The position numbers were made by a program, and so were the translations under genes. From Desulfurococcales archaeon (GTDB lineage: Archaea > Thermoproteota > Thermoprotei_A > Sulfolobales > Desulfurococcaceae), in contig WAPN01000037.1 in NCBI GenBank assembly GCA_015520735.1, positions 1 through 64,000 of the forward strand: DNA of 64,000 bases. Direction: 5' to 3'. Below the pieces are notes generated by a model that did not search any database, was not told the origin of the DNA, and worked only from the letters and a program-made list of their open reading frames with translations. This document shows positions 43,547 through 48,537 of the stretch, in pieces. How positions within the stretch are numbered: position 1 is the stretch's first letter; the number at the start of each line of letters is the position of its first letter.

Positions 43547-43819
43547 ATGGCCAAGGGTAAGAGAGGGCGCAAAGAAGAACCAACAGAGACTAAAAGAATA
43601 GTGTCGCTTGAGGCGCAGATCGAGGTAACAGGAGATATAATAAAAAGATTCGAGCGAGACTTGAAGCGTGGCTCGTTTAAGGTTATAACTCCTTATCAAT
43701 TGGCGCAAATATATAGTATCAGGATTAGTACCGCGAGAAAACTATTAAGAGCCGTTGCTGAAAAAGGGTTGATAAAACTGTATAGTGGTGGGAGAAACCC
43801 AATATATGTCAAAGCTTAG
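43547..43819 (+). CDS. rps25e: 30S ribosomal protein S25e
   Basis: 90 residues beginning MAKGKRGRKEEPTETK, with a winged-helix core (VITPYQLAQIYSIRISTARKLLRAV) and ending PIYVKA, as in archaeal S25e. The open frame extends upstream to 43463, but GGTG 7 bases before ATG 43547 and the family N-terminus set the start. S25e occurs mainly in Crenarchaeota and related phyla. Confidence 0.94.
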   Translation: MAKGKRGRKEEPTETKRIVSLEAQIEVTGDIIKRFERDLKRGSFKVITPYQLAQIYSIRISTARKLLRAVAEKGLIKLYSGGRNPIYVKA

Positions 43820-43824
43820 GGATA

Positions 43825-44865
43825 TCATAGTATTTTATTGAGTTCGCTGTTCTCATAGATTACTACATTGTTTCTTGTATTTACTATTAATTGATTCCTA
43901 TCACGGTCACATATTATGATCTCGCCATAAAGTTCCGACGCACGAATTATATCTCTTATATCTTCTACCTTAACGATCTCTTTATCATAATGAATAAATT
44001 TACCGTAGAATATTCTGGACTTATATTTCTTCAATACTTTCTCGGGATAGTAGTCACCATTACTAATCATGTAATATGCTATGGCGCCTAGAGTTGAAAG
44101 CATTACAGTAGCAGATAAGAGTGTTGAGTAAAAAGTTTTCTCACGAAGCCAGACTGTGTTTATCTCCATACCGAATATCGTCGTATTACCTGGTATGTAT
44201 ACTCTGCTATCCTTCTCTACGGATAGCGTTGTGTTATCAGTTCTTGTCTTGACGATTTTATTTAACTCATCATAATCGATAGTTAGGGACGGGGCGAAAC
44301 TGTATATACGGTAGGCATAACCATAATAGATTGTGTATACCAACTTATACCTTATTATTATGGTATATCCCAAGGGGTTTAGTCCTATCTGGTCGTTTAT
44401 TTTCTTCACAAATGAAGTATACTTGCCAAATGATACATATCCACTATCAGTAATAGTTACATTAGCTACATCAATATTTTCTTCTGTAATGATTTTTCTC
44501 CATGACGCTGTGGAGATTTCTATTATCTTGATAATACTAATTGTTTTGTTAGTTGGTTCACCATATAGCGGATCAGCGTAGTATTTAGTATTGATCGTAG
44601 TGTTATATAGAATGCCTCGCGCCAAGGACAGATAGATAGATTTACTACTTGTTTCCGTCTTATTGTCGAATAGTATTGATGGTTTTATATGATAGTTGAA
44701 TGATATATGAGCATCTGATTCCAAGAGTTTGGTTTTAACACTCCTCTGGATATAAGAAGGCGTTCTATATGCTATGCTAAGGGCGGATGCGGATACTACG
44801 AATACAGCCATGGATATCACGAGTACAATGATTAGTATGGTTTTATAGTTCTTAACGAATTTCAT
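43825..44865 (-). CDS. DUF5305-type membrane-anchored extracellular protein
   Basis: 346 residues: an N-terminal membrane helix (ILIIVLVISMAVFVVSASAL), about 220 outward-facing residues of beta-rich sequence with many N-x-T/S glycosylation sites, a second membrane helix (about residues 250-272) and a cytosolic tail. This layout and the neighbouring signal peptidase point to the archaeal DUF5305 group. Its GGTGGT lies upstream of ATG, and it overlaps the peptidase gene by 14 bases. Likely an accessory factor for fibre assembly or secretion, by position only. Confidence 0.7.
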   Translation of the reverse strand: MKFVKNYKTILIIVLVISMAVFVVSASALSIAYRTPSYIQRSVKTKLLESDAHISFNYHIKPSILFDNKTETSSKSIYLSLARGILYNTTINTKYYADPLYGEPTNKTISIIKIIEISTASWRKIITEENIDVANVTITDSGYVSFGKYTSFVKKINDQIGLNPLGYTIIIRYKLVYTIYYGYAYRIYSFAPSLTIDYDELNKIVKTRTDNTTLSVEKDSRVYIPGNTTIFGMEINTVWLREKTFYSTLLSATVMLSTLGAIAYYMISNGDYYPEKVLKKYKSRIFYGKFIHYDKEIVKVEDIRDIIRASELYGEIIICDRDRNQLIVNTRNNVVIYENSELNKIL

Positions 44866-46060
44866 ACATGTACCACCTTTTTATGAGTTTTATATAATAT
44901 GATAAAAACAATATAAGAAGAATTACCGATACTGTGAAAAGAAGCCCCATATAATAAGTTCCTAACAAGCGTGATATAGCAACAAGCGGTAACCCTATAT
45001 ATGGTAAGACGGCAAAGGTCTTGCCTATTATCTTATCTGACCTGATCTTCCATGGATCAATATAATTATTGGCATCGCCCTTTGTAATAATGTAGTTATC
45101 CTCCACAGAGTGTATTCTATGCACTATTATTGTGCCCTGTGTTGAAAAGACTATTATATCTCCTACATTGTAATGATCTTCCTTTTCAACAAGTACAAGA
45201 TCGCCAGGATTTACAGAAGGCTCCATCGAGCCAGTGAGGACCACAAATGAGTGTAAACCCGCAATCTGGAACAGAGCGACTAGGCCTAGTATTATCAGAG
45301 GAAAAATAGTCTTTATTTTACCAGTAATGCTGGCTTCTGCTTTGGGAGTCAGTAAGGGGCTGTGAGTAAACTTGGTATAATCAAGTATAAATAGAGAGGC
45401 TATTAGCCCTATCATTAGCATAATACTGGACATATACATTTTTATCATGGGCTGGATGGGAAAATAATACCAGATCATATCAACTCCTAATCGATAAGAG
45501 ACCGCAGGCAATAGACCATATGATATAATAATAATGCTTGTGACCATATTCATCATTAGTTCTCTCATGAATAAAATACTCATCTCCCCAATGTTTGTTA
45601 CAAACTGTACTGTCTGAAACATAATGACGGACATTATGATGCTTATAATAAGTATAAATAGTAAATTCCATTTCTTCAACATCAATGCCTTTACATGCTC
45701 AATAGCCATGAGACTAGTTAGTGTTAATATAAACGGCATTATCGCTGTAATGGGTTCTATGAAATAGATACTTTTACCGAAACCAAATATTATTCCTGAG
45801 AAGAAGAATGGTGCCAATGTAGAAGCTATCATTAATGGTATATATGATGATATGATACCATATGTTGGCTTTTTATATACCACGCATCGATAAGTTATAG
45901 TAACAACTAGTATGTTTAAAACTATCGGTACAAGATAGAATGCTGCACCATATAGTACGTTTAGATATTTTAGCATATATGCTGTTAAGATGAGTAGAAA
46001 TGGTAGAAGAGTCAATATGTACTGTCTAGTCGTTGATAACAAATTTGTATCTCTCTTCAT
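44852..46060 (-). CDS. Archaeal signal peptidase (SipW-like) with large multi-membrane N-terminal domain
   Basis: About 402 residues. The C-terminal 150 form a type I signal peptidase of the ER/SipW kind: catalytic serine in LTGSMEPSVNPGD, VHRI with histidine in place of the bacterial lysine, and KGDANNYID for the aspartate. Ahead of it are about 230 residues with seven or so membrane helices, which ordinary archaeal signal peptidases lack. It sits directly after the two secreted fibre-type genes, whose signal peptides it probably cuts. ATG 46060 is preferred to TTG 46072. Confidence 0.88.
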   Translation of the reverse strand: MKRDTNLLSTTRQYILTLLPFLLILTAYMLKYLNVLYGAAFYLVPIVLNILVVTITYRCVVYKKPTYGIISSYIPLMIASTLAPFFFSGIIFGFGKSIYFIEPITAIMPFILTLTSLMAIEHVKALMLKKWNLLFILIISIIMSVIMFQTVQFVTNIGEMSILFMRELMMNMVTSIIIISYGLLPAVSYRLGVDMIWYYFPIQPMIKMYMSSIMLMIGLIASLFILDYTKFTHSPLLTPKAEASITGKIKTIFPLIILGLVALFQIAGLHSFVVLTGSMEPSVNPGDLVLVEKEDHYNVGDIIVFSTQGTIIVHRIHSVEDNYIITKGDANNYIDPWKIRSDKIIGKTFAVLPYIGLPLVAISRLLGTYYMGLLFTVSVILLILFLSYYIKLIKRWYMYEIR

Positions 46061-46132
46061 GATTTTATACAAAAGAGTTTGTATATAGGGGTTGAAAAAT
46101 ATTCCCCCTATTTTTTACAGTTATTTTATCCT

Positions 46133-46813
46133 TTAAGCACCCGAAGGCACATTGCTGTTATATTCGTTCCACTGGATGGCATCATAATATATTATGAATG
46201 TCAAGTTAGTGTTTTGTGGCATATCCTGTAGTATTGTTATATCGAAACTAATATCGGCACTTTGACCTGGATGTAGTTGTGCACCAAAGTTGTCTCCCCA
46301 CCACATCATGATATCCGGCTTACCATCGCCATTGAGATCTATAGGTGTACCATTGGTTTGTTGCTCGCTATATAATGAGTAAAATGTTGATGTCCCTGTA
46401 CCGTTATGGAATCTTATTCGCCATATTTTGAGTGGTATTGTACCTGAGTTGATAACACTAAATCCTACGTGGGTATAATACCATGGATAGCCATTTACTA
46501 TCGTTATGTTTAATGCATCATAGTCTCCATCACCATCAGTATCTATTAGGTTAACATATGTTGTTCCAACATCTTTGTTTTCGGGAACCGGAATAATGAT
46601 CTTTTGCGGTATTGCATGGAAGTCTACCATATTGTCTGGCGTATTTGGTGGATCAGTTGATGACACAGTACCATACACAAACGCAAAGTCTAACTTGCCA
46701 GTGTTAACATAATTGTTTATCAGTAGTGTTTGGTACCACATTGCATAAGCTACTATTGAACCTATGAGCATTATGAGCGCGAATATTCCGATTATTGCGA
46801 TTTGTTTTCTCAT
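46133..46813 (-). CDS. Secreted TasA/camelysin-like fibre protein with Ca-binding-type loops
   Basis: 226 residues. A hydrophobic signal (IAIIGIFALIMLIGSIVAYA) runs into AMWYQTLLINNYVNTGKLDF, the pattern of SipW-processed TasA/camelysin proteins. The mature part is a beta-sandwich type sequence with INSGTIPLKIW, and two D-x-D-G-type loops, DTDGDGDYD and DLNGDGKPD, that resemble calcium sites. A close relative lies 77 bases upstream (shared NGYPxY and GTIPxK motifs and a C-terminal QWNE). GGTGAAC precedes the ATG. An extracellular filament subunit is inferred. Confidence 0.78.
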   Translation of the reverse strand: MRKQIAIIGIFALIMLIGSIVAYAMWYQTLLINNYVNTGKLDFAFVYGTVSSTDPPNTPDNMVDFHAIPQKIIIPVPENKDVGTTYVNLIDTDGDGDYDALNITIVNGYPWYYTHVGFSVINSGTIPLKIWRIRFHNGTGTSTFYSLYSEQQTNGTPIDLNGDGKPDIMMWWGDNFGAQLHPGQSADISFDITILQDMPQNTNLTFIIYYDAIQWNEYNSNVPSGA

Positions 46814-46836
46814 GTTATGTTCACCAGATTTTTATT

Positions 46837-46853
46837 TGGAGGTTGTACCTCCA
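46837..46853 (-). promoter_or_regulatory. Hairpin between the two fibre-protein genes
   Basis: TGGAGGT-TGT-ACCTCCA forms a 7-base-pair stem with a 3-base loop in the 76-base gap. It could stabilise, process or attenuate the transcript so that the two subunits are made in different amounts. Confidence 0.35.
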
Positions 46854-46889
46854 TGAAAAACTTGTCATACTGTTTCATATCGTGTTACC

Positions 46890-47474
46890 TTATATCCGTA
46901 ACGTATTGCGGGGTACTTCATTCCACTGAGCGAATGTTAGTGATATATCGAATGCGTATGTTGACATTTCAGATGCAGCTTGTTTGATACATATTGATAA
47001 TGTATAGGTACCGTTCTCATTAGGATGTATCTGTGTATCTTTAGGTATACCTAGGTTGACACGTAGAGCTGTTGTATTTACACCTGTTATAGTATAGTTG
47101 AGTAGTTTAACTGGTATTGTGCCTATGTTAGTCACATTGAAGGTTATGTCCGCAAAATAGCCCGGATAACCGTTAATGATCGTTACGTTTAGCTTTATGG
47201 TATTATTCTGTTCATCAAGTATCTCGGGGGTCACTATAACACTTGCTACATCTTTACCCTCAGAATTATCATAGCATGAACCATCATCGCACCCACACTG
47301 AGGATCGGGGCCATTGTCGTTGACAGCCCATCCACCAAACGCAACACGTACCTCTCCTGTATGGATGTACGTGTTTATGTTGATAGTTTCGGACCACATG
47401 GCTAATGCTGAGCCAAATGCCGTAAGAAGCGTGGCTAGCAATAGCACTCCAAGGGTTTTGCTTAAGGCGTACAT
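46890..47474 (-). CDS. Secreted TasA/camelysin-like fibre protein with cysteine loop
   Basis: 194 residues. The signal sequence LGVLLLATLLTAFGSALA is followed by MWSETININTYIHTGEVRV, again SipW-type. The mature domain shares INGYPGY, NIGTIPVKLL and C-terminal QWNE with its neighbour. A loop with three cysteines in DPQCGCDDGSCYDN, plus one later (SICIKQ), may form disulfides or a metal site. Many N-x-T/S sites. First structural gene of the locus, with AAGGTGA before the ATG and an operator-like repeat upstream. Confidence 0.78.
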   Translation of the reverse strand: MYALSKTLGVLLLATLLTAFGSALAMWSETININTYIHTGEVRVAFGGWAVNDNGPDPQCGCDDGSCYDNSEGKDVASVIVTPEILDEQNNTIKLNVTIINGYPGYFADITFNVTNIGTIPVKLLNYTITGVNTTALRVNLGIPKDTQIHPNENGTYTLSICIKQAASEMSTYAFDISLTFAQWNEVPRNTLRI

Positions 47475-47527
47475 CTTTTCACCTTAGGAGATAAGGGTGT
47501 CGATAAACTTATATTTATGAAAGGCAG

Positions 47528-47571
47528 ATTTTGTCCAGAGTTTGTATATGTATGAATTCTCTAGACAAAAT
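47528..47571 (-). promoter_or_regulatory. Inverted repeat around a TATA-like element before the fibre locus
   Basis: ATTTTGTCCAGAG (47528-47540) and CTCTAGACAAAAT (47559-47571) pair at 12 of 13 positions. The 18-base spacer contains a TATA-like CATACATATAC on the minus strand, about 70 bases before the first fibre gene. An inverted repeat that embraces the TATA box is a classic place for a repressor to shut off an archaeal promoter; the adjacent winged-helix protein is the obvious candidate. Confidence 0.5.
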
Positions 47572-47685
47572 GGGTTTTTACAAGAAATGAATCAATAATT
47601 CTAGAGGTAAGACACTATAAACAATTATCTGAAAAATCTTTTATAACTACATACAATGATTCTAGTTCATCATTAAAAACAAAGA

Positions 47686-48369
47686 TTATAAGATCCGAAG
47701 TTCTCTCACGATGAATTTATCCTTAAGCCTTCTGAATTTTTCACATTCAAGTAGACCGAATAAATGGTCAAGATATCTTCTAATGTTTAGGAGTTTATCT
47801 TCGGACACGAATAATATGACGCTATAGCCTGTATCAAGAGAGACTATTATTAGCCAGGACAATATTTGCTGGATTTCTAGCTCCGTTGCATCTTTTGAGA
47901 GAAAGCCTATGATATATTCTTTCCCATTTATCTTGACATATAGATCAATGAAATACGTCCTAGTGGTTTGTCCCTTGACATTCATTCCCAGCCTAGTGGA
48001 TTGTTCTATCTCAACGCACTCGCCTTCAGCTCCTATTTCTCTGCAGAACTCCTTCAAATTATCAATAAGCCTTGTAGTTGTTGTATGTTTGTTTCCCATG
48101 AACTTTCTGATCCTAGTGATAAGCATTAAAAGACGAGCTCCTCGAGGGGTTATCCTGTACATTTTACGGTCTCGACCATCATTTATAATCTCTAACGCAC
48201 CATTGTTTACGAGGTCGGAAAGAATGGATTCAAGACTGCGGGTATTCAGATTAGCCGCATAGAGTATTCTCGTCTTTCTTGCCTTACCTTCCTTCTCTAT
48301 GTACCTTAAAATAGCCTCAATAACCTCTATCTTGTTACGATTCCGTCGTTCTTTTTCCATTACACCCAT
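47686..48369 (-). CDS. Winged-helix transcription regulator of the fibre locus
   Basis: 227 residues. A winged helix of the archaeal PadR/wHTH type fills residues about 12-85 (EVIEAILRYIEKEG...LNTRSLESILSDLVNNGAL...GRDRKMYRITPRG). The C-terminal 130 residues, with IGAEGECVE and YTVKINGKEYIIGF-like strands, form an unknown, perhaps sensing, domain. It is transcribed toward the fibre genes with 211 bases between. Two 13-base direct repeats precede its start, suggesting autoregulation. Confidence 0.75.
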   Translation of the reverse strand: MGVMEKERRNRNKIEVIEAILRYIEKEGKARKTRILYAANLNTRSLESILSDLVNNGALEIINDGRDRKMYRITPRGARLLMLITRIRKFMGNKHTTTTRLIDNLKEFCREIGAEGECVEIEQSTRLGMNVKGQTTRTYFIDLYVKINGKEYIIGFLSKDATELEIQQILSWLIIVSLDTGYSVILFVSEDKLLNIRRYLDHLFGLLECEKFRRLKDKFIVRELRIL

Positions 48370-48385
48370 CTCATTATTAATACAG

Positions 48386-48411
48386 ACACGTTATATGTAC
48401 ACGTTATACAT
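48386..48411 (-). promoter_or_regulatory. Tandem 13-base repeats upstream of the winged-helix regulator
   Basis: ACACGTTATATGT (48386-48398) is followed at once by ACACGTTATACAT (48399-48411), 11 of 13 identical. They start 17 bases before the gene and overlap its likely promoter. Binding by the encoded protein is inference. Confidence 0.4.
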
Positions 48412-48537
48412 ACAAATACTCTGTTATAAAATTTTTGTATGATTTCTCCGATTCCAAAGAAATAAAAAATGATGACATAAAATTTTAAATATAGATATGC
48501 TCATGTGCGAACAAAATTATAACGCAGAGAAAAAGCG

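Follow-up and report, generated by a model that had tools for sequence, protein, structure and literature searches.

Introduction

Several prokaryotic fibre systems provide a frame for the locus described here, which lies in a 64,000-nucleotide stretch from a Desulfurococcales archaeon (GenBank assembly GCA_015520735.1, contig WAPN01000037.1, positions 1 to 64,000; the whole stretch is referred to as the window). ABPx of Pyrodictium abyssi is described as an ABP-like donor-strand-exchanged fibre (PMC11952670), and archaeal TasA-like donor-strand fibres were published earlier, according to the passages that cite them in PMC9674648 and PMC10151520; the proteins of the locus show no sequence match to these. 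In Bacillus, TapA starts the fibres of TasA. Additionally, threads are known from Sulfolobus acidocaldarius (Saci_0406, PDB 7pnb). The locus comprises genes for a winged-helix regulator (reg), two secreted proteins (secB and secA), a signal peptidase (SPase) and a DUF5305-like membrane protein. We consider it likely to be a regulated, dispensable two-pilin module for making a surface fibre by donor-strand exchange, of the TasA/archaeal-bundling-pilus kind. A preliminary description had proposed a TasA-like or bundling-pilus locus that includes a peptidase and a regulator of its own, and this is still the best reading in view of the homology to AbpX, the conserved gene order and the cleavage signature.

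The locus resembles the TasA/SipW/TapA system of Bacillus subtilis and the TasA-CalY-SipW system of B. cereus in its dedicated peptidase of the endoplasmic reticulum (ER) type, the aromatic residue at P2', the conserved proline motif and the dedicated regulation, and secA and secB correspond to the two paralogues of B. cereus (PMC9674648, PMC10151520, PMC13082335 and PMC10269814 for the Bacillus features). However, the proteins have no detectable similarity to TasA structures, a DUF5305 gene is found in place of TapA, and the regulator is a winged-helix protein rather than SinR. The Sulfolobus threads share Sec export, processing by signal peptidase I and an N-terminal donor strand (PMC9715654), but they show no sequence similarity, belong to another gene cluster and contain isopeptide bonds. 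Novelty is best sought in composition rather than in principle, and the gene set may have been described before. The module would extend donor-strand biofilm fibres to a widespread set of genes in hyperthermophiles with a defined part list, link DUF5305 to fibre assembly, and offer both a natural deletion pair and a co-evolution test for two pilins that share one filament.

Homology to AbpX and the cleavage signature

The proteins secA and secB are homologous (hhalign E=8e-36), and both find AbpX. A secB profile (A2) from which AbpX had been excluded matched AbpX 9sj2 with E=9.6e-10 over residues 27-161, a span that takes in the N-terminal donor segment and leaves out little of the mature domain. 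The corresponding secA profile (A1, AbpX excluded) matched with E=6.8e-6, and single secA and secB sequences matched as well. AbpX of P. abyssi (9sj2, 9rhp) is the one solved family found by secA or secB profiles. The preliminary description had likened the locus to AbpA of Pyrobaculum; no sequence similarity to AbpA was found, and the relative that can be recognised is the Pyrodictium protein AbpX. The stretch QWSETLSLSATISTG is C-terminal in 9rhp and N-terminal in 9sj2, a placement that would suit the layout of a self-complemented donor-strand construct.

The AbpX gene has a 100% match in genome G167, which we infer from that match to be P. abyssi. AbpX shares the N-terminal WSETL...TG strand, the YPG and GTIP motifs and the A|xW cleavage site, and its gene is followed by that of a 380-residue peptidase, which resembles SPase in type and likewise has a large membrane domain. 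However, the AbpX locus (L109) consists of one pilin and the peptidase, with no second pilin, DUF5305 gene or regulator detected beside them, and AbpX lacks the second calcium-type loop of secA. The motifs NGYP, GTIPxK and QWNE, previously noted in both secreted proteins, were confirmed as NGYP, GTIP(L/V)K and QWNE, and their positions are mostly invariant or nearly so among 33-36 orthologues.

The cleavage site carries A/S-x-W in 71 of the 71 pilins examined, and the mature proteins start with xW, mostly MW; the search pattern required the W, and none of the 71 failed it. Tryptophan at P2' in all pilins examined is the signature of SipW substrates: it is the aromatic P2' of TasA that lets the ER-type SipW cut this protein and keeps cutting by the P-type LepB poor (PMC10269814). 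The NCBIfam SipW-signal model gave a weak match in 3 of 16 orthologues. The SPase profile matches human SEC11C (E=5.5e-22), and Ser282, His318 and Asp333 are invariant in 14 sequences, with the Ser/His pair of the ER type. About eight transmembrane segments are predicted ahead of the catalytic domain by a hydropathy scan. The features of SipW-dependent export, namely a Ser-His dyad, a linked gene and aromatic-P2' substrates, are all present, and a second, ordinary signal peptidase of 173 residues is encoded elsewhere in the genome. Owing to the aromatic P2' of the substrates, the ER-type Ser/His pair, the SEC11 match and this separate ordinary enzyme, SPase is best read as a peptidase dedicated to the pilins, which may be cut by it alone. 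A sister genome that has lost the module (G001, see below) retains the ordinary peptidase alone. Identity with the Bacillus-type SipW was rejected, as the Bacillus SipW equivalog model scored 49 bits against a cut-off of 190.

Conservation and natural loss of the gene set

A search at the protein level in 61 relatives, together with a GTDB species-genome scan, supplied the contexts of about 60 loci. Within the family, the genes usually stand in the order reg-secB-secA-SPase-DUF5305, and this arrangement was found again in several other families of the taxonomic order, with the regulator gene 5' of secB in most loci. Since this five-gene order recurs in many genera, the locus is not a chance arrangement. 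Gene-order conservation had been set beforehand as one of two tests on which the proposal could fail, and the order extends well beyond this genome; by the same result, the suggestion that its member composition is distinctive was not borne out. All five genes were present in 19 of the 43 fetched loci, and most of the others are cut by contig ends or have one gene missing or moved. The relatives belong to Desulfurococcales, Desulfurococcaceae, Pyrodictiaceae, Acidilobaceae, Ignisphaera and Zestosphaera, in addition to three Clostridia/Bacillota contigs. Relatives of secB were detected in 81 of the 229 genomes searched within the class (E<=0.01) and in 37 of 398 genomes sampled across the phylum (1e-10), and the genome of the window has no pilins other than secA and secB. 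The pilins are the slow part of the module, with a median pairwise identity of 54-56% versus 20-28% for DUF5305, SPase and the regulator.

The three bacterial contigs (L081-L083; Clostridia, Bacillota and Syntrophomonadaceae) encode pilin relatives with W at P2' and the YPG and GTIPVK motifs; these genes adjoin a peptidase gene of about 400 codons, and L082 also has a clear DUF5305 gene. Such bacterial peptidase-DUF5305 relatives bear on the origin of the fibre, either before the split of the domains or by movement between them. In two otherwise near-complete genomes, secB contains an in-frame stop (TGA, G009:C1:63044-63595; TAA, G174:C30:89565-90098), which could reflect decay, phase variation or sequencing error.

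A sister species provides a natural deletion. In its genome (G001, 99% complete, about 91% identical DNA), the equivalent of window position 44284 is joined straight to that of 47656. This single 3.37-kb deletion removes secB, secA, SPase and the 5' part of the DUF5305 gene; what remains is the regulator, intact (95%), and a remnant of DUF5305, and no secA was found elsewhere in G001. The single deletion indicates that the module was already present in the ancestor of the genus, can be dispensed with and was lost in one piece. The join lies at about 7946-7951 of L123 (G001:C7) with only a few bases of microhomology, and an assembly error in this metagenome-assembled genome is possible.

The five co-oriented genes of the preliminary description were all found as open reading frames on the minus strand of the window (Table 1). 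The unit is bounded on both sides, because the 3' neighbour, an S25/winged-helix gene (43550-43819, plus strand), faces the opposite way and the 5' neighbours, tRNA-Gly and a flavoprotein gene, are both divergent.

Table 1. Features of the five-gene locus, with positions in the window
Feature	Position	Strand	Evidence or remarks
Regulator, 227 aa	47686..48369	-	N-terminal winged helix and variable C-terminal domain; PF14947 HTH_45, E=4.7e-16
secB, 194 aa, candidate first pilin	46890..47474	-	AbpX 9sj2 profile match; predicted 8-strand beta fold
secB signal peptide	47400-47474	-	Mature N-terminus A|MWSETININTYIHTGEVRVAF
Predicted donor strand of secB, mature residues 1-20	47340..47399	-	Aligns to AbpX residues 1-20
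secA, 226 aa, candidate second pilin	46133..46813	-	AbpX profile match; homologous to secB
secA signal peptide	46742-46813	-	Mature N-terminus A|MWYQTLLINNYVNTGKLDFAF
Predicted donor strand of secA, mature residues 1-20	46682..46741	-	Alignment with AbpX and secB
Calcium-binding-type loop 1 of secA, DTDGDGDYD	46517..46543	-	In 33 orthologues, G72 invariant and D67 and D71 conserved at 90% or more; marginal matches of secA to dockerin and FG-GAP
Calcium-binding-type loop 2 of secA, DLNGDGKPD	46313..46339	-	D135 and D139 invariant, D143 at least 90% conserved (33 orthologues)
Small intercistronic hairpin between secB and secA, GGAGGT-ACA-ACCTCC	46838..46852	-	Own z only -1.0
Dedicated ER-type signal peptidase (SPase)	44852..46072	-	TIGR02228, 76.4 bits, over its cut-off
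DUF5305-like membrane protein	43825..44865	-	Hydropathy scan; family members matching DUF5305
Promoter motif upstream of secB, CATATACAAACTC	47538..47550	-	Conserved within a 26-bp block
SPase promoter motif TATATACAAACTC (46075-46087) and adjacent TATA-like TATAAAAT (46062-46069)	46062..46087	-	Conserved in sister genomes
Candidate operator in the regulator's own promoter	48386..48421	-	Read from sequence; weak

Predicted donor strands and proposed roles of the two pilins

In the proposed mechanism, secB and secA would be exported via Sec and cut by SPase at A|(M/L)W, which would free an N-terminal strand (MWSETLxxNxxVxTGE). The freed strand would then slot into the groove left open in the beta-sandwich of the following subunit, so that a thin polymer results, and secA, with its two calcium-type loops, would probably join the same or a mixed filament. 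Mature residues 1-20 of both proteins are predicted from their sequences to be an N-terminal donor-type strand that directly follows the cleavage site, and in the AlphaFold2 (AF2) model of secB, residues 1-18 have no secondary structure.

Over mature residues 2-21, the agreement between secA and secB is 0.56 within a locus versus 0.47 between loci (p=0.0002, obtained by permuting partners among 27 clustered loci, a permutation that ignores phylogeny). Third codon positions behave likewise in the donor region (0.48 within versus 0.33 between; core 0.38 versus 0.33). The excess is also seen at the end of the signal peptide and stops after residue 21; at the protein level, mature residues 22-36 and the core show no significant within-locus excess. 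It persists, more weakly, without the four most similar pairs and under stricter clustering. The pattern resembles gene conversion restricted to the 5' ends of the two genes. It fits a need for both donor strands to suit one set of grooves and one peptidase, as would be the case in a mixed filament. Because the donor strands are kept alike within each genome, secA probably belongs to the same or a mixed filament, for which the co-assembly of TasA and CalY of B. cereus into heterofilaments is a precedent (PMC13082335).

In a fuller model, which we offer tentatively, the two pilins would form a heteropolymer and their donor strands would stay interchangeable through gene conversion even as the bodies diverge; a membrane complex of SPase and DUF5305 would couple cleavage to strand insertion, and the core would be common to archaea and Clostridia. 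The competing view that the pilins form two separate homopolymers, or that secB builds the fibre with secA only as tip, base or adhesin, is possible, though doubtful. It draws on the closer relation of secB to AbpX, on the analogy of TapA, on the intercistronic hairpin, which could set unequal expression, and on the third long pilin that stands beside secA in other genera, one with an SdrD_B domain; the homogenised donor strands and the B. cereus heterofilaments argue against it.

The hairpin between secB and secA may govern how much of one pilin is made relative to the other. Counterparts occur in L030, L033, L044, L047, L054 and L040; hairpins are stronger in related genera, often after a T-tract, and between L030 and L033 two base pairs have changed in a compensatory way. 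Extra long pilins (327-502 residues) precede the peptidase in some genera (L061 1724-3115, L062 8323-9306, L063 6399-7808, L076 7594-8910 and L112-L114); the one with the SdrD_B domain, in L061, is a possible adhesive subunit. Furthermore, a diverged pilin-like gene (190-227 codons) adjoins the regulator in L044 (5577-6149), L047, L054, L057 and L074.

Fold evidence and other readings

Several results weigh against a donor-strand fibre. AbpA, TasA and CanA structures had no sequence match in the PDB, even by a broad 22-row profile; Foldseek found no match below E=0.001 for either AF2 model, the models being of monomers only; DUF5305 has no profile similarity to the pilins; and the concerted change of the donor strands may stem from gene conversion favoured by local identity alone. 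The broad profile had been aimed at AbpA and TasA and matched AbpX alone, with an E-value that is not independent, since AbpX was one of its rows. The Clostridia relatives, used as a bridge to TasA, again gave AbpX, weakly, and nothing else.

Both AF2 models are beta-rich (pLDDT 87 for secB, 80 for secA), and the first 18 residues lack secondary structure in secA as in secB. TasA 8aur ranked 15 for both models as a weak match (E=0.024 and 0.035, template modelling score 0.24-0.32). For secB, the top 15 include subunits of chaperone-usher and class-5 fimbriae, the Sulfolobus thread 7pnb (E=0.024) and TasA, all likewise weak (E 0.009-0.024). Such matches to pilus proteins are compatible with the fold without proving it.

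Calcium-dependent, cannula-like tubes of the CanA type, instead of thin TasA/ABP-like fibres, appear improbable. The two conserved loops of secA, which from their sequence may bind calcium, speak for them, as does the polymerisation of CanA with divalent ions, mentioned in a passage of PMC12326000; the title of a cited paper, for its part, credits donor strand complementation and calcium for that polymerisation. Against this, secB lacks calcium-type loops, and the PDB searches with secA, secB or mixed profiles matched AbpX and no CanA chain at E<=10. AbpA chains, too, were absent at that threshold.

We give similarly little credit to a role as non-polymerising secreted proteins, associated with the S-layer or with binding, that are served by an accessory signal peptidase. 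The fold matches are weak and include Ig-like non-pilus proteins, and there are weak choice-of-anchor matches. However, the profile match to a solved filament subunit includes the N-terminal strand, the peptidase is dedicated to aromatic-P2' substrates, and the five-gene unit is conserved. Metalloproteases of the camelysin type (peptidase M73, Pfam PF12389), suggested by the use of that name for TasA relatives (PMC10151520), can be set aside almost entirely, as the family profile matched nothing in the archaeon's whole genome while the Bacillus subtilis control was positive, and neither secreted protein has an HExxH motif.

The DUF5305-like protein

Hydropathy predicts that the DUF5305-like protein consists of a transmembrane segment (10-28), an ectodomain, a second transmembrane segment (249-267) and a C-terminal domain of about 80 residues. 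The preliminary description called it a DUF5305-type protein; against PF17231 the protein of this locus scored 12.4 bits, short of the cut-off of 29, whereas matches were obtained for 12 of 16 family members (best 1.9e-13). The orthologue profile also finds a bona fide DUF5305 protein (124.8 bits) in the Bacillota contig L082, where it lies beside a peptidase of the same type and a pilin. The SPase and DUF5305 genes overlap by 14 bp in the window, and 22 of 28 loci show an overlap of 4-20 bp. Owing to this coupling to the peptidase, the protein is most likely a membrane partner, translationally coupled to SPase, that would hold or start the fibre. The idea that it is a hidden pilin was rejected for the lack of profile similarity already mentioned. 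No paper in the literature searched names DUF5305, and the heteropolymer and membrane-complex model, if true, would give it a first function.

Promoter motif and regulation

The regulator was confirmed as a winged-helix protein, with HTH_45 in 13 of 13 orthologues. The regulatory DNA that had been expected to match it takes the form of a motif common to the secB and SPase promoters. Before secB, the motif lies in a 26-bp block, TAGAGAATTCATACATATACAAACTC, that is identical in three genus members with differing flanks, and it is doubled in tandem in one genus member. Its 12-bp form ATATACAAACTC has three copies in the 1.53-Mb genome, one before secB, one before SPase and one inside an unrelated coding gene, which was dismissed as a target for that reason. 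With two mismatches allowed, the motif is no commoner in the window than chance (4 versus 2.1 expected); its support comes from the exact copies, their position and their conservation. The motif was not seen in the other genera inspected. Given the linkage, the regulator probably binds it to control the secB and SPase promoters.

At SPase, the first start of the open reading frame (TTG 46072) lies upstream of the TATA-like box. The true start is probably TTG 46042 (396 residues), because sister genes begin there and the box then lies 20-27 nt upstream; the transcript is perhaps leaderless.

The candidate operator in the regulator's own promoter contains a direct repeat ACACGTTATA with a 13-bp period (48386-48395 and 48399-48408, plus strand), of which the more distant genus member keeps just a part. 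Beside it, at 48409-48421 (plus strand), stands CATACAAATACTC, an inverted and degenerate version of the motif, which is conserved in two sister genomes save for one base in the more distant one.

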